Shown here: positions 46,905-60,381 of the stretch, one piece after another
Layout of the letters: each line of letters begins with the position of its first letter
Position numbering within the stretch: position 1 is the first letter of the stretch
Assembly (NCBI RefSeq): GCF_005696555.1
Contig: NZ_CP040005.1
Span: 1,860,001-1,924,000, forward strand
Reading direction: 5' to 3'
Length of the DNA stretch: 64,000 nt
Source: Actinomyces sp. oral taxon 171 str. F0337
GTDB lineage: Bacteria > Actinomycetota > Actinomycetes > Actinomycetales > Actinomycetaceae
Position numbers and translations under genes: made by a program
Notes under the pieces: generated by a model
The model's database searches: none
Told to the model about the DNA's origin: nothing
Seen by the model: the letters and a program-made list of their open reading frames with translations, nothing else

Positions 46905-48014
46905 TCAGGCCGGATCAAGGACCAGCACCGGGCGCGCACGTGGGCCCTGGTGCCTCAACAGTGCCACGAGTCGCCCGCTGGGAGCGAATCCGGCCACGAC
47001 GCGTTGCTCGGCCGCGTTCCGTGAGACCGGCGATCGCCGGCCCTCGGGCGCCTCGGCCCGCTCCAGGACCGCGGCGTCGAGAGGCCGGCCGTAGCGCAGT
47101 GAGCGTGCCTCATCCTCAGCGAGGGCCAGCTGCTCGAAGCAGCGCCGGGCGACCTCCTCCAGCGGGACCGTGGCGACCCCGCGAGGCTCAGGGGCCGAGG
47201 CATCGGCCTCGACCTGCTCGGACAGGGCCGCCAGGGTGCGGGCCTCGTCGACGTCGAAGGGGCCGACTGCGGTGCGTCGCAGCGCGGTCAGATGAGCCCC
47301 GCAGCCCAGTGCCCGGCCCAGGTCGCGGGCCAGGGCGCGCACGTAGGTGCCTGAGGAGCAGGAGACGAGGATGTCGATGTCGACGGCCTCCACCGCGTCT
47401 GAGACGTCGCTCCGAGCTCCGTCGGTGATCGTCTTCCGGGGCTCTCCGGTCAGGCGCAGCTCGTGGATGGTGACGGGCCTGGCCGACAGCTCGACGTCCT
47501 GCCCGTCTCTGACCCGCTTGTAGGCGCGCACGCCGTCGACCTTAATGGCGGAGACCACACTGGGCACCTGCTGGATCCGTCCGGTCAGGCTCGTCAGCGC
47601 CTCCTCGAGGCGATCCTCGGGAAGGTCCTCGATCCGGCAGCCGCGGGCTGCGGTGATCTCCCCGTCGGCGTCCTCCGTCGTGGTCTCCACCCCGAGACGG
47701 ACGGTGGCCTCGTAGGTCTTGCCTGCCCCTACCAGGTAGGTGAGGAAGCGGGTGGCGCGCCCGATGCCCAGGAGCAGCAGGCCGGTGGCCATGGGGTCGA
47801 GGGTGCCGGCGTGCCCCACCTTGCGGGTTGCGGCCAGGCGGCGGGTGGCGCCGACGACGTCGTGGCTGGTCAGCCCTTGGGGCTTGTCCACCACGAGGAT
47901 CCCGTCGGCGGCCGTGACCACGCCGCGGGGGACGTCGGGCCGACGACGTGCACGGTCGTGGCCGCTACGGAGGCCTGTCCGCTCCACCGGCTCAGCCCGC
48001 TCGGAGGCCTTCAC
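46905..48014 (-). CDS. truB: tRNA pseudouridine55 synthase
   Basis: Makes pseudouridine 55 in the T loop of tRNAs. The GTG at 48014 overlaps the rbfA stop by 4 bp and is preceded by GAGGACCT, giving 369 residues; the first about 31 residues are an Arg-rich extension before the conserved start [17 protein letters not shown]. Family motifs are [20 protein letters not shown] (the Asp is catalytic, near residue 78), TKTYEA-like [31 protein letters not shown] and [13 protein letters not shown]. The C-terminal extension fits the actinobacterial TruB. It is coupled to rbfA as usual. Confidence 0.95.
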
Positions 48015-48499
48015 AGGTCCTCGGCATCCGCTGCGGATTCCGGACCGGTCTCCTCGACCTCGGGGTCGCCATCCTCGGTCTCCTCGTCATGACGGTAGGG
48101 GTCGGCGTCACCGGCGTAGGTGGCCCCCTCGGCGACCTTGGCGATCTGCGCATCGCGCACCCGGGCCTGGGCCAGGGCGTCCTCGAGGGTCTTGGCAGTG
48201 GTGGGGAGGGCGTCGAGCTGGAAGGACAGCGAGGGGGTCAGGCGGATTCCCAGTGCCTTGCCCACCTCGGAGCGGATGAGTCCCTTGGCTGAGCGCAGCG
48301 CCTTGGCCGTCTCCCCACGCTCCTCATCGCTGCCGTAGACGGTGTAGAAGACGGTGGCCTGCTGGAGGTCCCCGGTGACGCGGACGTCGGTGACGGTGAC
48401 GAAACCCAGGCGCGGGTCCTTGATACGCCCTTGCAGGAGGCGGGCCACCGTCTCGTGAACACGGTCGGCGACCTTGCGGGCGCGGGCGGTATCAGCCAT
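48011..48499 (-). CDS. rbfA: Ribosome-binding factor A
   Basis: A 162-residue 30S maturation factor that acts on the 5' end of 16S rRNA. It reads [20 protein letters not shown] and shows [20 protein letters not shown] and VFYTVYG with the KH-like core [20 protein letters not shown]. The C-terminal about 30 residues are very acidic ([18 protein letters not shown]), a common actinobacterial tail. In most actinobacteria it lies directly after infB; here 7 kb of other genes separate them. Its stop overlaps the truB start. Confidence 0.95.
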
Positions 48500-48690
48500 G
48501 GCGGGGCTCCTTCAGGTGCGGGGTCCGGGTCGTCGTGATCGTGGCGGATCGGTGCGCGCCGTCCACGGCCGGGAGCGGGGTCACGTGATCCCCTCCCCTG
48601 GCGGATCTGCGCGCCTCAGTATGCTACGTGGAGCGGTGGTGCGGATAGCGCCACCATCCCCGAGCGCGAACGGACTGAGAACAGATCACA

Positions 48691-49731
48691 ATGGCCTCCT
48701 CCCCCGATGCCCCCTCCTGGAAGCACGACCCCGCCGCCGCGCCGAACACTCCGGCCGCCACCGCGGCCTCGGCGTCAGGGACGCTCGATGGCACCGGGAT
48801 GGCTCTGGTCATCGGCTGCTACTCCCTGTGGGGCGTCTTCCCCCTCTACTTCCGGCTGCTCTCGGCGGCCGGAAGCGTAGAGATCATCGGTCACCGGATC
48901 GCCTGGACGCTCGTCTCCTGCCTGGCGCTCATCGCCCTGCGGCACCGCTGGGTGACGCTGGCCCGCGTGGTGCGCACGCCTCGTCTGCTGGGGATGCTGG
49001 CCGTCTGCGGGCTCCTGGTCTCGGTCAACTGGCTCGTCTACGTCTACGGCGTCAACACCGCTCGCACGGCCGACGCGGCCCTGGGCTACTTCATCAACCC
49101 GTTGGTGACGGTGGCGCTGGCCTCGCTGGTGCTGCATGAGCGGCTGCGCCCCGCGCACCAGGTCTCGATCGCGCTGGCGGGCGCTGGAGTGGCCCTCCTG
49201 GTGGTGCTGCAGGGCTCGCTGCCGTGGATCTCCCTGGCGCTGGCCTTCTCCTTCGCCCTGTACGGACTGGTCAAGAAGCGGATCGGGCCCGACGTGGATG
49301 CTCTGACCGGGCTGACGGTGGAGAGCGCCGTCGTGGCTCCCCTTGCGCTGGCATACATGGGCCACCTGGCCTGGCAGGGTCAGTCGGCCTGGCAGGCCCC
49401 CGACCAGGGTTGGCAGATCCTGGCGCTGCTCGTGGTGGCCGGCCCGGTGACGGCCGTGCCACTGCTGCTCTTCGCAGCCGGAACCCGGCGAGTACCGTTG
49501 TCTGTGGTCGGGATGGGTCAGTACATCGCCCCGACCATCCAGTTCCTGCTGGCTTGGGGCGCCTTCCATGAGCAGATCCCGCCGGCCCGGTGGGCGGCCA
49601 TGGTGCTGGTGTGGGCGGCGGTGGCGGTCTTCATCGGTGACGCGGTGCGACAGCTCATTCGTCGCCCTCGTCGTCGTCAGCGTCCGACAGAGCGGCCTGG
49701 GGGCCGAAGCGCTCCAGGAGCGGGCCGATAA
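48691..49731 (+). CDS. rarD: EamA-family transporter RarD
   Basis: A 346-residue drug/metabolite-superfamily permease with about ten helices. The RarD start GMALVIGCYSLWGVFPLYFR with IGHRIAWTLVSCLALIALRH is near residues 31-80, and the second EamA half includes NTARTADAALGYFINPLVTV and GMGQYIAPTIQFLLAWGAFH. The last about 35 residues are Arg/Pro-rich and overlap the convergent slipin gene by 77 bp. Start ATG 48691 has no strong ribosome binding site; a TATGCT -10-like box lies at 48618. Substrate unknown (RarD was first named for chloramphenicol sensitivity). Confidence 0.9.
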   Translation: MASSPDAPSWKHDPAAAPNTPAATAASASGTLDGTGMALVIGCYSLWGVFPLYFRLLSAAGSVEIIGHRIAWTLVSCLALIALRHRWVTLARVVRTPRLLGMLAVCGLLVSVNWLVYVYGVNTARTADAALGYFINPLVTVALASLVLHERLRPAHQVSIALAGAGVALLVVLQGSLPWISLALAFSFALYGLVKKRIGPDVDALTGLTVESAVVAPLALAYMGHLAWQGQSAWQAPDQGWQILALLVVAGPVTAVPLLLFAAGTRRVPLSVVGMGQYIAPTIQFLLAWGAFHEQIPPARWAAMVLVWAAVAVFIGDAVRQLIRRPRRRQRPTERPGGRSAPGAGR

Positions 49732-50455
49732 TGTCCATCGGCAGGGGGAAGACGACCGTGGAGTTCTGGTCGGCGCCGAGCTCCAGAAGGGTCTGCAGGT
49801 AGCGCAGCTGGAGGGAGGCTGGTGACTTCGAGAGCGTGTCCGCCGCCTGACGCAGCTCCTCGGAGGCCTGGAGCTCACCGCGGGCGTTGATGATCTTGGC
49901 GCGGCGCTCACGTTCGGCCTCGGCTCCACGGGCCATGGCCCGCTGCATCTGCTCGGGGATCTCGACGTCCTTGATCTCGACGACGCTGACCTCCACGCCC
50001 CAGGGCTCGGTGAGCTTTTCGATGATGTCACGCAGGTCGGCGTTCAGGGCGCTGCGGTGGGCGAGCACGGTGTCCAGGTCGACCCGGCCGAGGACGGATC
50101 TCAGCGTTGTCTGCGCGATCTGGGAGGTGGCGATCGCGTAGTTCTCCACCGCCATGACGGCTTTGACGGGGTCGGTGACGTTGAACAGGACGACGGCGTT
50201 GACGCGCGCCGGCACGTTGTCCTCCGTGATGACCTCCTGGGGCGGGATGGTCAGGGTGACCACTCGGGTGTCGACCCGTACCAGGCGCTCGAGGAAGGGG
50301 ACGACCAGGTGCAGGCCGGGCTCGTAGACGGGTCGCAGACGCCCCAGCCTGAAGACGATGCCCCGCTCGTACTGGGTGATGATCTTGAGCGAGAGCGCCA
50401 GGGCGATCAGGACGAGGACGGCCAGGGCCGCGATGGCGACGGTGGGAGTAGTCAT
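49655..50455 (-). CDS. Slipin/stomatin-like SPFH-domain membrane protein
   Basis: A 266-residue SPFH protein: an N-terminal membrane helix (VAIAALAVLVLIALALSLKI), then YERGIVFRLGRLRPVYEPGL, the stomatin block VDTRVVTLTIPPQEVITEDN, DTVLAHRSALNADLRDIIEK and the coiled stretch ERERRAKIINARGELQASEE, with the helix RYLQTLLELG before the acidic end. These proteins oligomerise into membrane microdomain scaffolds; no partner NfeD is nearby. GAAGGACC precedes ATG 50455. It is 50 bp downstream of the WhiB-like-motif membrane gene and could belong to the norB operon. Its 3' end overlaps the rarD end. Confidence 0.9.
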   Translation of the reverse strand: MTTPTVAIAALAVLVLIALALSLKIITQYERGIVFRLGRLRPVYEPGLHLVVPFLERLVRVDTRVVTLTIPPQEVITEDNVPARVNAVVLFNVTDPVKAVMAVENYAIATSQIAQTTLRSVLGRVDLDTVLAHRSALNADLRDIIEKLTEPWGVEVSVVEIKDVEIPEQMQRAMARGAEAERERRAKIINARGELQASEELRQAADTLSKSPASLQLRYLQTLLELGADQNSTVVFPLPMDIIGPLLERFGPQAALSDADDDEGDE

Positions 50456-50505
50456 GGAGGGTCCTTCAGGAAGGTGGGTCGAAACGGCTCAGGGCTGGAT
50501 CCGGA

Positions 50506-51438
50506 TCATCTGCTTGTGTTGTCGGTGGCCTCGTTCCACACCGAGGACCATGAGCGCCGGGCTCCGCCGCGGGCGCCGTCGCCGACACCGTCCGAGCTGA
50601 GCTCGGCACTGGCGGTCGGGATTCGCTTGCGGGTGCGCAGGGCGGTCACGCGACGCAGCTCGGGCTCTGCGGAGGCAGCAGTCCTGCCGTCCGCTCTCCC
50701 GGCGCCGTCGGAGTCGGCGAGGAAGGAGACGTGCACGGTTCGCCCTGACGCCGTCGCACGCGCCTGAGCGGCAGCGATCGCTTCGGCAGCCTCACGCACT
50801 GAGCGGTAACCCGAGGGGCGTGAGCCGATCGCCACCGGCACGGGCCTGGTGCTCGCCGAGCGACGTGCCTCCTCCGCCTCGCGGTACTCCTGGGAGCCGA
50901 CGTGGGGCAGGTGGGCCGGCGCGTTGTCGGGGACGTTCCACAGGTGGCGGGCCAGCGGCAGGACTCCGGCGACAATGACGACGACCATCGTCGTGCCCAG
51001 GACGATGAGGTCGCCGGTGGCGTGAAAGGCCACCATGAGCAGCATCGGGATGAAGACGCCGACGCAGGCGATGACCAGGCCCACGCCGCGATGAAAGCGT
51101 CCGGCGTCGGAGTAGGGCCACGGGTCGACGGGCCGGGTGATCTCCCGCGGGCCGGGGGTGGGAGAGCAGCTGTCCTTGGACGGGCAGCGCCCGCAGATCG
51201 CGTGGGCCCCCTCGTAGCGGATGACGCGCTTGTCCGGGTCGAAGGCGGTGGGCCAGAGCCACTGATCCTCGTGGCACCTCCAGCCGTCGACGTCGTCGTG
51301 GTACATGAAGTCCGCGTGCCGCCAGGACATCGAGTGCCGGGCGCTGCGCGAGCCGAGGACGTCCACGGCCCACCCAGCGGCCAGCATGATGAGCGCGTAG
51401 GCGGAGATGAGCCATACGCTCAGATCGGGTGAGTCCAT
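50506..51438 (-). CDS. norB-coupled membrane protein with WhiB-like tetracysteine motif
   Basis: A 310-residue protein I cannot assign to a named family. One helix (residues about 8-30), a soluble loop (31-117), two helices (about 118-142 and 145-167) and a long basic Ser/Arg/Ala tail. The loop holds Cys55 in WRCHEDQWLWP and Cys82, Cys85 and Cys91 in ICGRCPSKDSC. C-x2-C-x5-C with an earlier fourth Cys is the cluster-binding pattern of WhiB-like (Wbl) proteins, here spaced C-x26-C-x2-C-x5-C, but the Wbl G-[VI]-W-G-G turn is missing. Its ATG shares one base with the norB stop (TGATG), so it is translated with the nitric oxide reductase. A role in NO sensing or electron transfer is an inference; a zinc site is the alternative. 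Confidence 0.8.
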   Translation of the reverse strand: MDSPDLSVWLISAYALIMLAAGWAVDVLGSRSARHSMSWRHADFMYHDDVDGWRCHEDQWLWPTAFDPDKRVIRYEGAHAICGRCPSKDSCSPTPGPREITRPVDPWPYSDAGRFHRGVGLVIACVGVFIPMLLMVAFHATGDLIVLGTTMVVVIVAGVLPLARHLWNVPDNAPAHLPHVGSQEYREAEEARRSASTRPVPVAIGSRPSGYRSVREAAEAIAAAQARATASGRTVHVSFLADSDGAGRADGRTAASAEPELRRVTALRTRKRIPTASAELSSDGVGDGARGGARRSWSSVWNEATDNTSR

Positions 51439-53780
51439 CAGTCGTTCAGCTCCGCGCGCTCACCGCGCCAGACCTTGCGCCCGCCCTTGATCTCCTCGTA
51501 GAGGGCGTCCTCGGCGAAGGTGTCCACTGTTCGTCCACGACGCCAGTTCCTCAGTCCCAGGAAGGCGATGTAGAGGTAGGGCAGGACTCCGCCGATGATG
51601 AAGATGAGGTCTCCGGGCATCCGTCCCCACTCGATGATCGTGTTGACCGAGTTGGTGACGTAGGTGAGCTGGCGAGCCTCGAAGTAGCCCGTTCCCACCG
51701 AGTAGCGCAGCTGGAGGATGCCCAGCGGCAGCAAGGTGGCGAAGCACATCCATGCCAGGCCGATGTTGAGGCTCCAGAAGGAGGTCTTGGCGAGCTTCTC
51801 GGGCCACTTGTCGGCCGGCACCAGGTAGCGCAGGGCGAACATCCCCAGCGCCAGCGCCATGAAGCCGTAGACACCCATCATGGAGGCGTGGGCGTGGTTG
51901 GCCGTCAACGCGGTCCCGATCTCGTAGTAGGACACGATGGGCAGGTTGACCAGGAAACCGAAGACACCGGCGCCCAGGAAGTTCCAGAAGCCGACAGCCA
52001 TGAGGAACATGACGGCCCAGCGGTGCGGGAAGGGGCCGGCCTCCTTGCCGTGGCGGTTGGCGCCCAGCTGCATGAAGGCCCAGGCCTCAACCGTCAGGAA
52101 GGTCAGGGGGATCACCTCGGCCGCTGAGAAGAAGGCACCCAAAGCCATGTGCTCCACCGGCGTGCCGGAGAAGTAGAGGTGGTGCATGGTGCCGATGACG
52201 CCTCCGGCGGAGTACAGGATGATGTCCATGAAGATGATGCCCAGTGCGATCCTCTCCCGGACCACGCCCAGGAGGACGAACACGTAGGCGACCATGACGG
52301 TGGTGAACAGCTCGAGGAAGTCCTCGACCCACAGGTGCACCACCCAGAAGCGCCAGAACTCGGCGACAGTGACATGGGTACCGGTGCGCGCCATCATCCC
52401 CACGGCATAGAAGGCGGGGATCGCCAGGGCGGCGAACATGAACAGCCAGGGCATGTTCGCCACGTGCTCGTTCCTCAGGCGCGAGCGCATGGCGCGCCAG
52501 ATGATGAATACCCAGACGAACAGGGCCAGGGTCAGCAGCACCTGGAAGACGAAGGGGAGGTCGAGATACTCCCACTGCTGGGCGAACAGCGGCCCCTTGG
52601 CCCAGCTCAGGCCGTGCTGGCTGGCCCCCTCCGCCAGGCAGGACAGGACGACGACGACCGTGGCCGCGATGAACAGGATCCACACCAGCACGTGCTGCTT
52701 CTTCGGCTCGCGCCTGGCGATGAACGGGGTCAGGAACAGGCCTGCAGCCAGCAGCCCGATGGCCGTCCAGAACAAGGAGAGCTGGACGTGCCAGGTGCGG
52801 GCCAGGGAGAAGGGCAGGAGCCGGCCCAGGTCGAAGCCGAAGAACGACAGCACATCGGCCCGGTAGTGCTCGGCCAGGGCTCCCAGGAGCGTCTGAACGA
52901 GGAACAGGGCGGCAATGGTGAAGACGTACCACGCAACCACCCTCTGCGACTTGGTCAGCCCGATCTCCTCAGGTTGTCGGAAGGACAGCGCCGGGGCCTC
53001 CTCGGAGTGCCAGCCGATCTTCTGGCTCCAGCGGCCGTAGATGGCGAACATGACCCCGGTTCCACCAATGAGGACGATCAGCGACAGGACCGACCAGATC
53101 ATGAGGTCGCCGGTGGGCGCGTTACCTACCAGGGACTCGGCAGGCCAGTTATTCGTGTACGAGTAGTCGTGCCCCGGGCGCTGCGCGGACGAGCCCCAGG
53201 CGGTCCAGCCGAAGAAGGCCGTCACCTGCTTGACCTGGACGGGATCGGTGATGAGATCCGGCTTGAGACCGTGACTGTGGGCTTCGGGCCCGAACATCGT
53301 GGTGTAGTGGCTGACCGCCTCGTTGTAGGCCTTGACCTGCTCATCGGTCCACACCAGGGTTCCCGTGGAGGGGTCATAGCGGTTGGTCCGCATCATCTCC
53401 TTGGTGGCGTCCGCCGGGTTGGCAACCCCCTGGGCGGCGAGCTGCTCCTTGACGCTCGTGGCCTCCATACGGAGGTACTCGGCAGTGAAGTCAGGACCGA
53501 GGTAGCCGCCGTGCCCCAGGATGGAGCCGTACTCCATGAGCCCTCTGGCCTGGAAGAGCTTCTGCCCCTCGGTGATGTCCTGCGTCGTGAAGACGGTCTC
53601 GCCGCTCTCAGTGACCACCTTCTGTGGCTGAGGCATGGAGTTGGTATAGGTGCGATAGGCCAGCAGGCCCATGACGGTGAACCCGAAGAGCATGACCAGG
53701 GCGACGCCCTGGATCCACCCCTTGCCGATGAGGCGAGCGCGCCGGGAGACCGCCCCCTCAGTCGTGGCAGCGGATGACAT
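51438..53780 (-). CDS. norB: Quinol-dependent nitric oxide reductase (qNorB)
   Basis: Membrane enzyme that reduces two NO to N2O with electrons from quinol. The 780 residues are family-length for the single-subunit form. A first helix (IQGVALVMLFGFTVMGLLAY) precedes a cytochrome-c-like extracytoplasmic domain lacking a CxxCH heme site (residues 40-230, with GHGGYLGPDFTAEYL), as in known qNors. The catalytic part has the haem-copper helices: TWHVQLSLFWTAIGL, RFWVVHLWVEDFLELFTTVM and NHAHASMMGVYGFMALAL, with the His ligands for the haems and FeB. GGAGGT lies six bases before ATG 53780. It is translationally coupled to the tetracysteine membrane protein. It likely detoxifies NO rather than serving full denitrification, since no nir genes are seen. 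Confidence 0.95.
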   Translation of the reverse strand: MSSAATTEGAVSRRARLIGKGWIQGVALVMLFGFTVMGLLAYRTYTNSMPQPQKVVTESGETVFTTQDITEGQKLFQARGLMEYGSILGHGGYLGPDFTAEYLRMEATSVKEQLAAQGVANPADATKEMMRTNRYDPSTGTLVWTDEQVKAYNEAVSHYTTMFGPEAHSHGLKPDLITDPVQVKQVTAFFGWTAWGSSAQRPGHDYSYTNNWPAESLVGNAPTGDLMIWSVLSLIVLIGGTGVMFAIYGRWSQKIGWHSEEAPALSFRQPEEIGLTKSQRVVAWYVFTIAALFLVQTLLGALAEHYRADVLSFFGFDLGRLLPFSLARTWHVQLSLFWTAIGLLAAGLFLTPFIARREPKKQHVLVWILFIAATVVVVLSCLAEGASQHGLSWAKGPLFAQQWEYLDLPFVFQVLLTLALFVWVFIIWRAMRSRLRNEHVANMPWLFMFAALAIPAFYAVGMMARTGTHVTVAEFWRFWVVHLWVEDFLELFTTVMVAYVFVLLGVVRERIALGIIFMDIILYSAGGVIGTMHHLYFSGTPVEHMALGAFFSAAEVIPLTFLTVEAWAFMQLGANRHGKEAGPFPHRWAVMFLMAVGFWNFLGAGVFGFLVNLPIVSYYEIGTALTANHAHASMMGVYGFMALALGMFALRYLVPADKWPEKLAKTSFWSLNIGLAWMCFATLLPLGILQLRYSVGTGYFEARQLTYVTNSVNTIIEWGRMPGDLIFIIGGVLPYLYIAFLGLRNWRRGRTVDTFAEDALYEEIKGGRKVWRGERAELND

Positions 53781-54142
53781 GAGATTACCTCCGTGTATCT
53801 CAGGAGACGGCGGACGTCTTCCGCGTCGTCACAACCACCGTACAAGCCGTGCAGGGTCGAGAGGAGGAACGATCCGGGAGCTCTCCGTCGATATAACGAC
53901 TGATCGGTCCCATTTCATTAGATTCTCTCCGTTGGTATTCAACACGTGGAATGACGCGACAGCCAGGGTGTCACATATTTTAAATACCAATATGTTTCCT
54001 ATTTAAGGAAGGTTGACTTAAGTTCTGTTCCGTCACGTCGAACCCTTGATCGCGACATCTTGTCACCACACCCTACATAGAACTGAGAAACAGCAGTACA
54101 ATGATTTATACGGAAAGTTTGTCACCCCGTTCGTAAGGCACG
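53781..54142. promoter_or_regulatory. Divergent control region of norB and the molybdo-oxidoreductase, with NsrR-like core
   Basis: This 362-bp AT-rich gap has TATTTTAAATA (53976-53986), identical to the core I recall for NsrR sites of Bacillus nitrite/NO genes. It is framed by CATATT/AATATG arms (53974-53979, 53989-53994) and by TTGGTATT/AATACCAA (53932-53939, 53983-53990). TTCCT-ATTTA-AGGAA (53996-54010) and GTCG-N6-CGAC (53888-53901) are further dyads. TACAAT near 54098 could be the -10 for the plus-strand gene. No gene was found here. Confidence 0.55.
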
Positions 54143-55717
54143 ATGATGTCCCTCCTGCCCCTTGCCGCCCAGACCGCCAACGACGTCGCCCAGCAGTGCG
54201 TCGATACTGAGACCTTCCCACTGTGGCTGCGCGTCACCCACTTCATCAACTTCCTCCTCATGGGCGTTCTCATCCGCTCCGGTATCGAGATCATCGCCTC
54301 GCACCCACGCTTCTACTTCAAAGACCAGTGCGAACCCGGCTCCGAGTGGATCCGGTTCACCAAGGACAAGGTGCCCCTCGAGGAGGGCGCCTTCACCGCC
54401 CGGGACGACCAGCGAGACCTCTCCCCCTTAGTGTCCCTGCCCGGTCGGGCCAAGATCGGGCTGGGTCGTGCCTGGCACGGAATAGCCACCAGCTTCTGGC
54501 TGCTCAACGGCATCGTGTACGTCGCCTTCCTCGTGGGTACCGGGGCGTGGCAGCGCCTGGTTCCAACCACGTGGCAGATCCTGCCCGACGCCTGGGACTC
54601 CCTGCTGACCTACGCACACCTGCGCACCCCGTCCTTGTGCGACTTCACCCCCTACGACAGCCTTCAGCAGCTCGGGTACTTCTTCATCGTTTTCATCGCC
54701 GCCCCGCTGATGATCGTGACGGGGCCGGTCATGTCCCCCGCCCTCGTGGGGCGCTTCCCCTGGTACGCCAAGATGTTCGGTGGCCGCCAGGCTGCCCGCT
54801 CCCTGCACCTGATCGGCATGTTCGTCTACCTGGGCTTCGCCATCGTCCACGTGGGTCTGGTGTTCATCGTGCACGCCCCCCACAACCTCACCCACATCGT
54901 CTTCGGCTACTACGACCCCAACCGGGTGGGTCAGGCCTACGTCACCGTGATCGGAACGGTCGTCGTCGTTGTGGCGCTGTGGATCGCCATGTCGTACTGG
55001 ACGCTGACGGACACTCGCCGCAGCCAGCGGATCCTGTGGGATGCCACGCGTGGGATCCGCCGCGTCACGGTCGACCGTTTCAAGTCGCAGCAAGCGGCCA
55101 GGAAACCGTGGACGGAGAAGGACATCTCCAAGTTCCACTGGGTCAACACCCGCACCCCCTCTCGAGAGGAGTCCCCGGAGTACCAGGAGCTGGCGGCTAA
55201 TGACTTCGCCGACTTCCGCCTCGAGGTGGGCGGTATGGTCTCAGCACCGGCATCCTTCTCCCTCGCAGAGCTCAAGGCGATCTCCAGCCAGTCCCAGATC
55301 ACTATGCACACCTGTATGCAGGGCTGGACGGGAATCGCCAAGTGGACGGGGATCCGTGTGCGGGACCTGCTCGGGCAGGTCGGTCAGATCGATCCCGAGG
55401 CCGAATGGGTGATGTTCGAGTCCTTCGGGATGGCCCAGCACATGCACGACGGGCGCCCGGTCGAGCCGTACTACACGTGCCTGCCCCTGGACATGGCCCT
55501 TGAGGACGACACGATCCTGGCCTGGGACCGCAATGACGAGCCGCTGTCGGGCATGTTCGGCGCTCCGCTGCGCCTGCGCTGCGAGACGAGCCACGGGTAC
55601 AAGATGATCAAGTGGGTCCGGTCAGTGACGTTGATCCGTCACTACAGCGAGGTCGGTGACGGTATGGGCGGGACCCGTGAGGACTCCGGGTACCAGGATG
55701 TCAACGCGCGCATCTGA
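54143..55717 (+). CDS. Fused cytochrome b561-like / molybdopterin oxidoreductase
   Basis: A 524-residue fusion. The N-terminal half is a cytochrome-b-type membrane domain with about five helices; candidate haem His residues are in LWLRVTHFINFLLMG, RAWHGIATSFWLLNG, RSLHLIGMFVYLGFAIVHVG and FIVHAPHNLTHI. After a linker near 320 comes a sulfite-oxidase-fold molybdopterin domain: FRLEVGGMVSAPASFSLAEL, then TMHTCMQGWTGIAKWTGIRV with Cys391 as the probable Mo ligand, and GAPLRLRCETSHGYKMIKWV. It resembles MsrP (YedY) plus its membrane partner MsrQ (YedZ) joined into one chain, though no Tat signal precedes the catalytic part, so the side on which it acts is unclear. It is divergent from norB. Confidence 0.88.
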   Translation: MMSLLPLAAQTANDVAQQCVDTETFPLWLRVTHFINFLLMGVLIRSGIEIIASHPRFYFKDQCEPGSEWIRFTKDKVPLEEGAFTARDDQRDLSPLVSLPGRAKIGLGRAWHGIATSFWLLNGIVYVAFLVGTGAWQRLVPTTWQILPDAWDSLLTYAHLRTPSLCDFTPYDSLQQLGYFFIVFIAAPLMIVTGPVMSPALVGRFPWYAKMFGGRQAARSLHLIGMFVYLGFAIVHVGLVFIVHAPHNLTHIVFGYYDPNRVGQAYVTVIGTVVVVVALWIAMSYWTLTDTRRSQRILWDATRGIRRVTVDRFKSQQAARKPWTEKDISKFHWVNTRTPSREESPEYQELAANDFADFRLEVGGMVSAPASFSLAELKAISSQSQITMHTCMQGWTGIAKWTGIRVRDLLGQVGQIDPEAEWVMFESFGMAQHMHDGRPVEPYYTCLPLDMALEDDTILAWDRNDEPLSGMFGAPLRLRCETSHGYKMIKWVRSVTLIRHYSEVGDGMGGTREDSGYQDVNARI

Positions 55718-55776
55718 CGGCCTCACGGCACTCGGTCAGGCTCACACGAGGCGGCCGACGTGCGTCCGTCGCTGAT

Positions 55777-55819
55777 GATGGTGGCCGGCCACCCCACACT
55801 GGGGTGGCCGGCCACCATC
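55777..55819. terminator. Strong bidirectional terminator, 19-bp perfect stem
   Basis: The arms 55777-55795 and 55801-55819 are perfectly complementary around the 5-nt loop ACACT; the core of each arm, TGGCCGGCCA, is itself a palindrome. It lies 60 bp past the oxidoreductase stop and 31 bp past the infB stop on the other strand. Confidence 0.88.
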
Positions 55820-55849
55820 TATGAACGCGGTCTATGAACGCCGTCACGC

Positions 55850-58798
55850 TCAGTCGCGAGGCTTCTCACGCATCTCCCAGGTCTCGATGACGTCGCCCTC
55901 GGCGATGTCCTTGTACCCCAGGTTGATACCGCACTCGTAGCCCTCGCGGACCTCCGTGACGTCGTCCTTCTCGCGGCGCAGCGTCTCAATGGACAGATCG
56001 CCGTTGATGACGACGCCGTCGCGCACCAGGCGGGCCTTGGTGCCCCGCTTGATGATGCCCGAGCGGACAATGGAACCGGCGATGGAGCCGAACTTCGAGG
56101 AGCGGAAGATCTGCCGGATCTCGGCCGTACCGAGCTCGACCTCCTCGTAGACGGGCTTGAGCATGCCCTTCATGGAGGCCTCGACGTCCTCGATCGCGTT
56201 GTAGATGACCGAGTAGAACTTCATGTCGACGCCCTCGCGGTCGGCGATCTCCGAAACGCGCTCGGCGGGCCGGACATTGAAGCCGATGATGACGGCGGAG
56301 TCCACCGTGGCCAGGTTGACGTCGTTCTGCGTGATGGCACCCACGCCCCGGTGGATGACGCGCAGAGCGACCTCCTCACCAACGTCGATCTTGAGCAGGG
56401 AGTCCTCCAGGGCCTCGACCGCACCCGAGCTGTCGCCCTTGAGGATGAGGTTGAGGGTGTCGACCTTACCCTCCTTGAGGACGTCGGTGAGGTTCTCCAG
56501 GGAGACCCGCTTGCGACGCTTGGCCAGCATGGCGGCGCGCTCGGCGGCCTCACGCTTGTCGGCGATCTGTCGGGCCGTGCGGTCGTCGGGGGCGACGATG
56601 AAGGAGTCACCGGCGCTGGGCACGTTGGTCAGCCCCAGGACCAGGGCCGGACGGGCGGGCCCGGCCTCAGTGAGGTTCTCCCCGTGCTCGTTGAACATGG
56701 CGCGCACACGCCCGTAGGCGCTTCCGGCCACGATCGGGTCCCCGACCCGCAACGTGCCACGCTCGACCAGGATGGTGCTCACGGCGCCGCGTCCCTTATC
56801 GAGCTTGGCCTCGATGGTGACGCCGCGGGCCTCGGTCTCCGGGTTGGCCCGCAGATCCAGGGCGGCGTCCGCGGTGAGCAGGACGGCCTCGAGGAGCTCG
56901 TCGATGTGGAGACGCTGCTTGGCGGAGATGTCCACGAACATCGTCTCGCCGCCGTACTCCTCGGGGACCAGGCCGTACTCGGTGAGCTGGCCACGGATCT
57001 TGTCCGGGTTGGCGCCCTCCTTGTCGATCTTGTTGACCGCCACGACGATCGGCACGTTGGCCGCCTGGGCGTGGTTGAGGGCCTCGACGGTCTGGGGCAT
57101 GACGCCGTCATCGGCGGCCACGACAAGGATGGCGATGTCGGTCACCTCGGCACCACGGGCACGCATGGCCGTGAAGGCCTCGTGACCGGGGGTGTCGATG
57201 AAGGTGATCGGACGCTCCTCGTCGTTCAGGTTGACGCGCACCTGGTAGGCGCCGATGGACTGGGTGATGCCCCCGGCCTCCCCGGCGACGACGTCGGTGG
57301 AGCGGATGGCGTCCAGCAGCTTGGTCTTACCGTGGTCGACGTGGCCCATGACCGTGACCACCGGGGGCCGGGGCATGAGGTTGGCGTCGTCCTCGTCGGG
57401 CTCGAGGTCGATGTCGAAGGACTCCAGGAGCTCGCGGTCCTCGTCCTCGGGCGAGACGATCTGGACGTTGTAGCCCAGCTCGGCGCCCAGGAGGGCGAAG
57501 GTGTCCTCGTCGAGGGACTGGGTGGCCGTGGCCATCTCACCGAGATGGAACAGGACGGTCACCAGGGCCGCGGGGTTGGCGTTGATCTTCTCGGCCAGAT
57601 CCGTGAGAGTGGCCCCCTGGCGCACGCGCACCGGGGTGGAGCCGTCACCTCGTGGGACGATGACACCGCCGATCGACGGCGCGCTCTGCTGCTCGAACTC
57701 CTGACGCTTGGCCCGCTTGGACTTGCGTCCTCGCGGAGCGCCGCCGCCACGACCGAAGGCGCCCTGGGTGGAACCGCGACCACCACGACCACCGCGGGGT
57801 CCGCCGAAGCCGCCACCGGGACGGCCGCCGCCTCCGGGACGGCCGCCACCACCGGGACGCGAGCCGCGGCCTCCGCCGCCGGCACCGCCACGCGCCGGAG
57901 CGCCGGGGCGGCCGATGGAGGACTGGCCGGGCATCATGCCCGGGTTGGGACGCGGACCACCCGGACGCGGGGCACCGGAACGACCGGCTCCCTGAGACCG
58001 TGCACCGCCCTGAGGACGGGGGCCACCGGGGCGCGGGCCGCCCTGAGGACGGGGACCGCCCGAGCCGCCCGGGCGAGGCATGCCCTGGGAGGCGGCGAAG
58101 GGGTTGTTGCCAGGACGCGGCGCACCCGAGCGCGACTGGCCCGAGCGCTGGCCGCCTCGGCCTCCCTGGCCACCCTGACGGGGCATGCCCTGGGAGGCGG
58201 CGAAGGGGTTGTTGCCAGGACGCGGTGCCCCGGGACGCGGCCCCGGCGTCGGGGCGCTACGACGCGAGCCGGGCGTCGGCGCGCCGGGGGCTGCACCTGC
58301 TGGCTTGGAAGCGCCGGCTCCGGGCTTGGGGGCCTTGGGCGCGTCGCCGGCGGCGCCTTTCTGGGGCGCCAGTTTGTCGGCAGCCGCCGGAGCCTGGGTT
58401 CCGCCACTCGGCTTGGCGGCCTGAGCACCTGGCTTGGGAGCGCCGGTACCCGGTTTGGGGGCGGCCGGCTTGGCAGCGGGGCTCGGAGCCCGGTCCTGAG
58501 CACCGGCGGGTCCCGGCTTGGCAGCCTGAGCTCCTGGCTTGGGAGCACCCTTGGAGGGCTTGGGGGCCTGAGAGGCAGTCTTGGCCGGCTTGTCGACCGC
58601 AGTGTCCGCCGGCGCTTCCTGCACCTGGGCGGCGAAGTGCTCACGAACCCGGCGAGCGACGGGGGGCTCAACGGCGGAGGAGGCCGCCTTGACGAACTCT
58701 CCCTGGTCCTTGAGCCAGGCCAGGATCACCTTCGAGGTGACCTTCTTGCCAGTGGGGTCGAGCTCTTTAGCGAGCTCATGAACGCGTGGTTTAGCCAC
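55850..58798 (-). CDS. infB: Translation initiation factor IF-2
   Basis: GTPase that places initiator tRNA on the ribosome. GTG 58798 with AGGAG four bases upstream gives 982 residues. IF2_N is at 1-55 ([20 protein letters not shown]), then a 320-residue linker of Pro, Gly, Ala and Arg containing two [14 protein letters not shown] copies, a second IF2_N-like domain (about 377-450), and the GTPase: [17 protein letters not shown] near 482, [33 protein letters not shown]. Domains II, III and the initiator-tRNA-binding C2 domain follow to [11 protein letters not shown]. The RNA just upstream can hide the ribosome binding site. It follows ylxR; rbfA, its usual downstream neighbour, is displaced. 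Confidence 0.97.
58077..58120 (-). repeat. 44-bp direct repeat in infB, copy 1
   Basis: Identical over 44 bp to 58182-58225. The copies encode the [13 protein letters not shown] segment twice in the IF-2 linker and are 105 bp apart, a multiple of three. Confidence 0.9.
58182..58225 (-). repeat. 44-bp direct repeat in infB, copy 2
   Basis: Second copy of the preceding repeat. Recombination between the copies would remove 35 residues without changing frame. Confidence 0.9.
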
Positions 58799-58802
58799 AT
58801 TA

Positions 58803-58837
58803 CTCCTGTCCGGTTTCCCACCCCGGACAGGGGTGGG
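58803..58837 (-). promoter_or_regulatory. infB leader with two competing hairpins over the ribosome binding site
   Basis: In the mRNA, CCCACCCC (58837-58830) can pair with GGGGTGGG (58824-58817), loop TGTCC. Alternatively CCTGTCCGG (58831-58823) can pair with CCGGACAGG (58813-58805), whose last bases are the first three of the AGGAG ribosome binding site (58807-58803). Both stems are perfect, and they share bases, so they cannot coexist. The second would hide the infB start signal. Confidence 0.65.
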
Positions 58838-58889
58838 TGCTTCTAGAGGCAGCTCATCGCTGGGTACTCATCGGGTGCCCATCGGCTTC

Positions 58890-59222
58890 CTACCCGCCTT
58901 CGCTATCGGTGGTCCGCTCACCCGGTCGGGCAGCGGGAGCCTCGCCGTCGTTGACCACTCCCCGCTCCAGGAACCCGCGCACCCGGGCCACATCGAGTGG
59001 TCCGCCGGTGCGCAGGGCGCGTGGAGCGGCGCGTCGTCGCTCAGCGAGGTCGAGGCACACCGGATCCGGGTGGATCCAGGCGCCGCGCCCGGGTCTGACG
59101 GCCCGGGCATCGACGTCGAGCTCACCGCTCGGCGTCAGTACGAGACGCAGCAGCTGCGTCCGCGGGGCCCTTTGTCGACAGCCGATACAGGTGCGCTCGG
59201 GCACGTGGGGGATGGTGACCAC
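58890..59222 (-). CDS. ylxR: YlxR family RNA-binding protein (DUF448)
   Basis: A 110-residue member of the YlxR family, found between nusA and infB; reported members bind RNA or RNase P components, but the role differs between studies. It begins MVTIPHVPERTCIGCRQRAP and has the conserved RTCIGCR, LLRLV, RPGRGAWIHPDPVCLDLAER stretch. GTG 59222 is the first in-frame start; GTG 59204, giving VPERTCIGC, is equally plausible and no strong ribosome binding site decides. The C-terminal about 25 residues are a disordered Glu/Gly tail. A GCCGGG-AGAT-CCCGGC hairpin (59273-59288) lies in the gap to nusA. Confidence 0.9.
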   Translation of the reverse strand: MVTIPHVPERTCIGCRQRAPRTQLLRLVLTPSGELDVDARAVRPGRGAWIHPDPVCLDLAERRRAAPRALRTGGPLDVARVRGFLERGVVNDGEAPAARPGERTTDSEGG

Positions 59223-59340
59223 CGTCCGTCGGTGTCCTTCCGCTGCTCTGCAACCGCTGACGCGGGCACCGCGGCCGGGAGATCCCGGCGCAGGACCCGC
59301 AAAGGTCCGCCGGAAAGTCTACATCGCCCCGCAGGGCGGT

Positions 59341-60381
59341 TCAGTCGCCCAGCTCTGAGGGACCTGTCACGTCGTCGGACTGGGAGCCCTGACCGGGGGT
59401 GATCTCACCGGACTCGGCATCGGCGTGGATGTCGATCTTCCACCCGGTCAGGCGGGCGGCCAAACGGGCGTTCTGCCCCTCCTTGCCGATGGCCAGGGAG
59501 AGCTGGAAGTCGGGGACGATGGCGCGAGCGGTGCGCTCCTCGGCGTCGATGACGCCCACGGCGGCCACCCGGGCCGGCGACAGGGCGTTGGCGATGAAGC
59601 GCGCAGGATCCTCCGAGTGGTCCACGATGTCGATCTTCTCTCCACCGAGCTCGGTCATGACCGCACGCACCCGCTGCCCCATGGGGCCGATGCAGGCCCC
59701 CTTGGCGTTGACGCCACGGACCTTGGAGCGCACGGCCATCTTGGTGCGGTGACCGGCCTCTCGGGCGACGGAGACGATCTCGACGTCGCCCGAGGAGATC
59801 TCAGGAACCTCGCGCTCGAAGAGCTTGCGGACCAGACCGGGATGGGTGCGCGACAGGATGATCTGCGCCCCGCGGGTGCCGCGTGAGACGTCGGTGACGT
59901 AGGCGCGCACGCGGTCGCCGTGGCGGTAGCGCTCAGCAGGGACCTGCTCGTGGGGAGGCATGATGCCCTCGTGCTCCTCGTCCAGGCGCACGTAGACGAT
60001 GCGGGGGTCGCGTCCCTGCTCCACGGTGCCGGAGATCAGCTCGCCGGTCTTGTCCTTGAAGGCACCCAGGACCTCGAAGTCACGGCGGTCCTGGATGCGC
60101 TGGACGATGACGCTGCGGGCCGTGGCCTGGGCGATGCGACCGAAGTCGTCGGGAGTGTCGTCGAAGTACTCCCCCGTGGGCTGGTCGTCATCATCGACCT
60201 CCGGGGCCAGAACGCTCATGTGCCCAGTTCGGCGGTCGATCTCGACGTGGGCACCCCGGATGGCACCGGGAACCTTGGAGTAGGCCCCCAGGATGGCGTC
60301 CTCGATAGCGGGCAGCAGGTTGTCCAGGTCAATGCCGAGCTCGTCGGCAGCGCCTCGCAGCTCCGGCATATTGATGTCCAT
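59341..60381 (-). CDS. nusA: Transcription termination/antitermination protein NusA
   Basis: RNA-polymerase-binding factor controlling pausing and termination. The 346 residues lack the C-terminal acidic repeats of E. coli NusA, as normal for Gram-positives. The N-terminal domain (MDINMPELRGAADELGIDLD, LPAIEDAILGAYSKV) is followed by S1 (ELISGTVEQGRDPRIVYVRL near 117) and two KH domains (VRGVNAKGACIGPMGQRVRA near 227 and LAIGKEGQNARLAARLTGWK near 297). The last about 25 residues are a polar tail. AAGGA precedes ATG 60381 closely. The upstream gap to rimP is 193 bp with an AT-rich pocket (60500-60535) that may hold a promoter. Confidence 0.96.
   Translation of the reverse strand: MDINMPELRGAADELGIDLDNLLPAIEDAILGAYSKVPGAIRGAHVEIDRRTGHMSVLAPEVDDDDQPTGEYFDDTPDDFGRIAQATARSVIVQRIQDRRDFEVLGAFKDKTGELISGTVEQGRDPRIVYVRLDEEHEGIMPPHEQVPAERYRHGDRVRAYVTDVSRGTRGAQIILSRTHPGLVRKLFEREVPEISSGDVEIVSVAREAGHRTKMAVRSKVRGVNAKGACIGPMGQRVRAVMTELGGEKIDIVDHSEDPARFIANALSPARVAAVGVIDAEERTARAIVPDFQLSLAIGKEGQNARLAARLTGWKIDIHADAESGEITPGQGSQSDDVTGPSELGD

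Follow-up and report, generated by a model that had tools for sequence, protein, structure and literature searches.

The 64,000-nucleotide stretch analysed here (the window), from contig NZ_CP040005.1 of Actinomyces sp. oral taxon 171 str. F0337, carries on its minus strand a nitric oxide (NO) reductase gene, norB, followed by a gene for a membrane protein that we refer to as the partner, and then by a gene for a stomatin of the SPFH/Band 7 type. The norB gene (51438..53780) encodes a single-chain quinol-dependent NO reductase (qNor) of 780 amino acids, which joins an N-terminal cytochrome c-like domain and the NorB core in one chain (PF22085, E = 2.7e-55; PF00115, E = 4.7e-50), and residues 25-745 of which align with solved qNor chains at E-values down to 4.9e-141 (PDB 6qq5, 6fwf, 3ayf and others). 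The partner gene (50506..51438, 310 amino acids, ATG start) lies directly downstream and overlaps norB by one base at 51438, where, in ...GACTGATGGAC..., the A of the norB TGA is also the A of the partner ATG. The stomatin gene (49655..50455, 266 amino acids) begins 50 nucleotides after the partner gene, and its product has both an SPFH domain (PF01145, E = 4.7e-43) and a full-length match to stomatin chains in the PDB (residues 15-245, E = 3.3e-62), with weaker matches to QmcA (2.2e-34) and HflC (2e-16). Upstream of norB, promoter and inverted-repeat scans gave no reliable element.

The partner is a three-helix protein with a four-cysteine loop

Hydropathy analysis of the partner placed three transmembrane (TM) segments at residues 6-22, 121-137 and 144-160, and two AlphaFold2 jobs, with 19 and 16 sequences, returned confident helices at residues 6-41 or 6-42, 111-137 and 141-167. 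On the minus strand the modelled helices correspond to 51316..51423 (TM1, residues 6-41), 51028..51108 (TM2) and 50938..51018 (TM3). The loop between TM1 and TM2 contains Cys55 (codon 51274..51276), Cys82 (51193..51195), Cys85 (51184..51186) and Cys91 (51166..51168) in the order C55-x26-C82-x2-C85-x5-C91, and an additional Cys125 lies within TM2. The one-base overlap, the three helices, the membrane anchoring and the four cysteines described in the initial annotation of this locus were all confirmed by the open reading frames (ORFs), hydropathy and AlphaFold2.

The four cysteines belong to a domain of about residues 43-103 (51130..51312) that resembles part of IS1182 transposases, as described below, and that is probably cytoplasmic: the mean net charge among 50 relatives was -0.88 for the N-terminal tail and +2.10 for the 22 residues that follow TM1, a bias which, by the positive-inside rule, would place the cysteine loop inside the cell. 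Between this domain and TM2 lies a WPxSxxxRFHRG motif (residues 107-118, 51085..51120) that is largely retained in relatives lacking the cysteines. Across 57 partners, Y14 and P108 were found in 57/57 and W107 and H116 in 56/57, and the most densely invariant stretch among the Actinomyces sequences was residues 43-118, which contain the cysteine loop.

The partner gene matched no Pfam or NCBIfam family name of its own, and solved structures were rejected as matches, none being credible (best E 1.5; in a second search best E 0.2, to citrate synthase). Relatives were found at 12 Actinomyces loci and at 7 further loci among the genome contigs searched, the latter comprising six Micrococcales-type organisms, named or binned, and one Propionibacterium acidifaciens, while the phage records and viral contigs searched gave no match.

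The partner accompanies norB throughout the sampled Actinomycetota

We surveyed Actinomycetota genomes for norB with PF22085, thereby starting from the reductase rather than from the partner and avoiding circularity. Genomes positive for norB numbered 18/394 in a sample of the class (360 of good quality, 138 genera), 17/251 and 11/200 in two families, 16/49 in the genus and 6/246 in the phylum, counts from which the weak matches in genomes G657 (E = 3.2e-4) and G874 (E = 9.7e-4) were left out. Removal of repeats left 56 norB loci, 53 of which were readable downstream; in the other three, norB broke off beside an ORF read as an IS256-type transposase (G136), the contig ended (G577), or a norB-like start of 364 amino acids broke off on a contig whose other ORFs appear unrelated (G957). 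The ORFs after this last break resemble amino acid synthesis genes, and the contig is perhaps chimeric.

The partner lay directly downstream of norB in 52 of the 53 readable loci, in 46 cases with the four cysteines (Cys-bearing) and in six without them (Cys-less); the remaining locus, in G874, had none. Broken down by source as Cys-bearing, Cys-less and absent, the loci were 15/2/0 for the class, 13/4/0 for the families, 16/0/0 for the genus and 2/0/1 for the phylum. Two of the Cys-bearing loci, L128 and L140, were scored as such by eye and stand outside the 56 partner-norB pairs used for sequence comparison; the frame of L140 is open for 139 amino acids only. In the class sample, all 16 genomes that were positive for the partner were among the 18 norB-positive genomes of the 394 (Fisher p = 1.3e-26, uncorrected for kinship). 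The 376 norB-negative genomes of the class yielded no partner in a search with model A2, a null result that speaks mainly for Cys-bearing copies since the Cys-less partner of G174 escaped A2. The distance from the norB stop to the partner start was -4 to +7 nucleotides in 33 of 35 loci and +26 and +31 in the other two, with the start codon closest to the norB stop chosen by script. Each norB had a single partner gene, including the doubled norB genes of L126/L127 and L129/L130. The linkage between norB and the partner in the sampled Actinomycetota is thus very strong, and the family is not one found mostly away from NO genes, in keeping with the tie to an NO reductase that had been proposed. 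The whole cassette occurs twice near contig ends in G036 (L009/L012) and in Actinomyces haliotis (L021/L022), as either a true duplication or an effect of assembly.

The cysteine loop is absent in several lineages

The six Cys-less partners found next to norB (L100, L101, L126, L129, L131 and L132), together with one on a Streptomyces plasmid (L178), are 109-147 amino acids long and lack the loop; they retain TM1 and TM2-TM3 and, to differing degrees, the WPxSxxxRFH motif. Because 6 of the 52 partners are without the loop, the constant part of the family is the three-helix scaffold. In a NorB tree, which omits 11 near-identical Actinomyces loci as well as L001-L012, L025, L029, L128, L139 and L140, the presence or absence of the cysteines needs three changes, two of which are forced by well-supported branches. 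Two genomes with two norB copies each hold one Cys-bearing and one Cys-less partner (L126/L127 in G686 and L129/L130 in G724); in neither genome is there a stomatin gene near either copy.

The plasmid locus L178 (NZ_CP108071.1) has norB with the Cys-less partner, transposase genes on both sides and no stomatin. As norB was found in 0/185 genomes of the family sample of G075 (taken as Streptomycetaceae), this sample added no Cys-less cases.

The cysteine loop is related to a region of IS1182 transposases

The initial annotation had called the partner WhiB-like (Wbl) on account of its four cysteines, and had named their invariance as a point to check. All four are indeed invariant in the 25 members of set A3, which excludes L047, the only Cys-less match of the class-sample model search; across the wider family this does not hold, given the partners described above that lack the loop. 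The spacing x26-x2-x5 was present in 47/50 partners and the first spacer was x24 in the other three, where 50 of the 56 pairs had been called Cys-bearing from the C-x2-C-x5-C pattern, so that three of the cysteines are kept by construction in the spacing and residue counts.

The NCBIfam model of IS1182 transposases, NF033551, matched 25/25 members of A3 at E-values up to 0.1 (best 1e-11). In the window partner, model positions 347-418 fall on residues 33-105, including all four cysteines, with a core E of 5.5e-5; since only about positions 344-423 of the 488 in the model are matched, the whole-protein cut-off of 270 bits is missed (22.2 bits for the window protein). PF13751 (DDE_Tnp_1_6) matched 18/25 members (best 1.9e-4). 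When genomes were searched with the IS1182 model, two members of the partner family (E = 1.3e-10 and 5.0e-10) and the window gene (2.0e-4) were recovered, and a tblastn search of 72,556 plasmid records with the window protein gave one match, at E = 1e-3, to an unannotated ORF of Roseobacter litoralis (L137) read as an IS1182 transposase. A DDE nuclease domain is absent from the window partner, whose only NCBIfam match covers residues 34-105 and which has three TM helices instead.

Aligned by hhalign with 11 IS1182 cysteine regions, the loop scored 41.4 over 60 columns, with probabilities of 94-97 across the IS1182 comparisons, and none of 100 cysteine-preserving shuffles scored as high (mean 13.3, maximum 27.4). 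The full IS1182 set consisted of 12 sequences with the four-cysteine pattern from 27 loci scanned, L137 among them; with L137 included the score was 58.9 over 75 columns (shuffle maximum 23.3), but this sequence had come to light through the window protein, at an E-value at the limit, and the figure used here is therefore the one without it. Because NF033551 matches the family and the profile scores exceed those of the shuffles, we regard the loop, on these comparisons, as homologous to the cysteine region of IS1182 transposases. The two share an F-x-[YI] start, a first cysteine that is mostly followed by proline, and C-x2-C-P-x4-C; they differ in that the partner, which has three TM helices and no DDE nuclease, carries the domain in a loop, and in that the first spacer, 24-26 residues in the partner, is more variable in the transposases.

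The comparison with Wbl proteins was weaker. Against 24 distinct Wbl sequences from 30 loci, the loop scored 26.2 over 31 columns, with the first cysteine outside the aligned part, and one of 100 cysteine-preserving shuffles scored as high; an initial comparison with just two Wbl sequences had given 30.3. The Pfam model Whib (PF02467) matched 11/25 members of A3 at E-values up to 0.1, with a best value of 0.019, and did not match the window protein at E-values up to 1. According to one report, Wbl proteins have G[V/I]WGG following their final cysteine, and the four cysteines of WhiB1 are C9, C37, C40 and C46 (PMC6282962); the motif was found in 0/56 partners, and the four cysteines of the partner, in nearly the same order, have a spacing equal to that of WhiB1 within one residue. 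Homology to Wbl proteins was therefore rejected, given the weak or missing Whib matches, a profile score that a shuffle reached, and the missing G[VI]WGG. The likeness appears to lie mainly in the cysteine spacing, in a protein that is membrane-bound and matches the profile weakly over one half only, and a very remote kinship may exist.

What stands of the likeness to Wbl proteins is the order and spacing of the cysteines, and the loop is, judging from these residues, probably metal-binding; four cysteines at such distances would fit both a [4Fe-4S] cluster and zinc. Among the matches listed in our literature searches, nothing dealt with the metal of the IS1182 transposase cysteine region.

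A dedicated stomatin is the third gene of the row

Clustering of neighbouring genes over all ORFs, which was otherwise spoiled by antisense ORFs in this GC-rich DNA, pointed to a third gene, and it is this stomatin gene, beyond 50506..53780, that is the more telling neighbour of norB. A stomatin gene lay next to the partner at 41/46 Cys-bearing and 0/6 Cys-less loci anchored on norB. The same division was seen within one genus, in which the Cys-bearing loci L104, L133 and L134 have a stomatin and the Cys-less loci L131 and L132 do not, and the 45 rows of the tree divide into 35 with both cysteines and stomatin, four with cysteines only, none with stomatin only and six with neither.

In Actinomyces, the 16 norB-positive genomes among the 49, and no others, carried an orthologue of the stomatin (83-100% identity), at 17 places, and the 33 norB-negative genomes contained only stomatin paralogues of 36-40% identity or weaker. 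We consider the link between the cysteines and the stomatin a lead rather than proof.

Neighbouring genes

In the window (46905-60381), the row of norB, partner and stomatin sits on the minus strand between infB (55850-58798) and rbfA/truB (46905-48499), below nusA (59341-60381), genes that usually form one gene row. An infB or rbfA flank was found at other Actinomyces loci as well. The same interval holds an EamA transporter gene and a divergent gene (54143-55717, plus strand) whose product joins a membrane part resembling cytochrome b561 to a molybdopterin domain of the sulfite-oxidase-like type. A homologue of this fusion gene was found near norB in 12 loci, every one of them in Actinomyces. 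Since some enzymes of the sulfite-oxidase-like molybdopterin class turn nitrite into NO, the encoded enzyme could feed the qNor.

Discussion

The data describe a row of three genes in which a qNor is followed by a membrane protein and, at most Cys-bearing loci, by a stomatin. As a near-constant membrane companion of NorB, the partner is most simply read as a small subunit or an adaptor. The reading that we favour, to which we assign a probability of roughly 0.4, is that it is an accessory subunit of the actinobacterial qNor that acts as an adaptor, with a cytoplasmic, metal-binding Cys4 loop onto which a dome of the dedicated stomatin docks. NorB of the qNor type reduces NO in the membrane, and the three TM helices of the partner would sit with or beside it. 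The loop would contain a Cys4 domain that binds metal and is of the type present in IS1182 transposases, and the stomatin from the following gene would dock there. By forming an oligomeric dome over the cytoplasmic side of the membrane, this stomatin would hold or protect the qNor in a membrane patch of its own. That a dedicated stomatin follows the qNor, yet stands beside 0/7 Cys-less partners, suggests such docking, and the topology that places the loop inside the cell would put it on the same side of the membrane as stomatin domes. Loss of the stomatin would then permit loss of the loop, while the three-helix part remained with norB.

The action of mammalian stomatin on transporters may serve as an analogue: in the available text of one study, stomatin encloses AQP1 and UT-B in a dome with cytosolic SPFH domains (PMC12407830). 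One review raises in its title the question of Band-7 proteins as scaffolds in the assembly of the respiratory chain (PMC3986555), and the title of a work cited by another article (PMC12624060) names the pairing QmcA-YbbJ and SPFH-NfeD. In these systems, too, an SPFH gene stands beside one for a small multi-TM protein; they differ from the present case in that none of the 25 members has an NfeD match in Pfam at E-values up to 0.1 and in that the row here also holds a respiratory enzyme.

Several observations weigh against this adaptor reading. The cysteine loop has a predicted local distance difference test score (pLDDT) below 50 in both AlphaFold2 jobs. In G874, from the phylum sample and outside the class, norB has neither partner nor stomatin, and four plasmid qNor loci outside Actinomycetota (Sphingobium, Cupriavidus, Methylosinus and Desulfosarcina) likewise have none by annotation or tblastn, so that a qNor as such does not need either protein. 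At five Cys-bearing loci (L109, L127, L130, L140 and L141) the 4.4-6.7 kb that follow norB contain no stomatin. Finally, the independent losses of the cysteines number only two to three, so few that a paired sister test cannot reach significance.

The alternative that survives best, although we consider it unlikely, is that the partner is a structural small subunit of the qNor whose Cys4 loop is a zinc-stapled fold of no particular function, the stomatin being a general membrane organiser linked to it by chance. The scaffold does outlast the loop in at least two lineages, and SPFH proteins are so widespread that the stomatin query finds a match of some strength in 49/49 genomes of the genus; however, the stomatin of the operon is a distinct orthologue found in 16/16 norB-positive and 0/33 norB-negative genomes of the genus, and in Actinomyces the loop lies within the very stretch that is most densely invariant. 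Ranking next, and accordingly improbable as well, is a role as an assembly factor of NorB that inserts or guards the non-haem FeB iron, with the metal held by the Cys4 loop, much as NorQ and NorD have an FeB-related role in cNor systems. A single partner copy per norB, even where norB is doubled, would suit such a factor, and SPFH proteins are discussed in connection with membrane-protein quality control in the available part of one article (PMC12624060), yet Cys-less versions stand beside norB genes that appear intact. The weakest of these alternatives, and one that we doubt still more, is modelled on the Wbl proteins: an NO-reactive [4Fe-4S] cluster bound by the loop would make it a redox switch of the qNor or a local sensor of NO. 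In its favour one may cite a spacing of x26-x2-x5 within a few residues of the x27-x2-x5 of WhiB1, the tie of the gene to a qNor and the invariance of the four cysteines in the 25 A3 members; against it stand a resemblance to Wbl proteins that does not extend beyond the CxxC half, G[VI]WGG in none of the 56 partners, the six of 52 partners that lack the loop and retain the rest, and a closest kin, among those found for the loop, in a transposase region.

We know of no link between that transposase region and NO. Because 6/52 partners lack the cysteines, it is unlikely that the partner serves universally as a sensor of NO, a donor of clusters or a carrier of electrons for the qNor, functions that the initial annotation had considered, and the four-cysteine motif is not a constant part of the family; any such role may be limited to the Cys-bearing majority. 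The label WhiB-like itself is better dropped in view of the missing motif, the best Whib E of 0.019 and the hhalign scores of 26.2 for Wbl and 41.4 for IS1182.

Within the adaptor reading one can go further and suppose that the three-helix adaptor, through its transposase-related metal loop, confines the qNor within the stomatin dome, that NO is kept in the resulting closed patch, and that NO or the redox state opens or closes the dome. We hold this extension to be less probable than any of the alternatives above.

To our knowledge, the solved qNors are described as enzymes without such a partner, and qNor is treated as a one-subunit enzyme. Our literature searches found no paper that combined 'stomatin', 'SPFH' and 'nitric oxide reductase', and no title on the partner protein was among the matches listed. 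The available text of a study of Corynebacterium pseudotuberculosis predicts that the genome holds only norB and does not mention 'SPFH' or 'stomatin' (PMC4289026), nor is 'SPFH' mentioned in the available part of a paper on norB of Rhodococcus equi (PMC13332983). An SPFH protein of C. pseudotuberculosis, CpC231_1066, is listed with changed abundance in the accessible part of a further study (PMC4604328).

In the sampled Actinomycetota, then, qNor has a near-constant membrane partner and usually a stomatin of its own. A Cys4 domain is common to a transposase family and to what is probably a respiratory accessory protein, and the row of norB, partner and stomatin points to an unstudied membrane organisation of a respiratory enzyme. 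Comprising a single stomatin with a single probable client and a single probable adaptor, the row would offer a bacterial system for a direct test of stomatin function.

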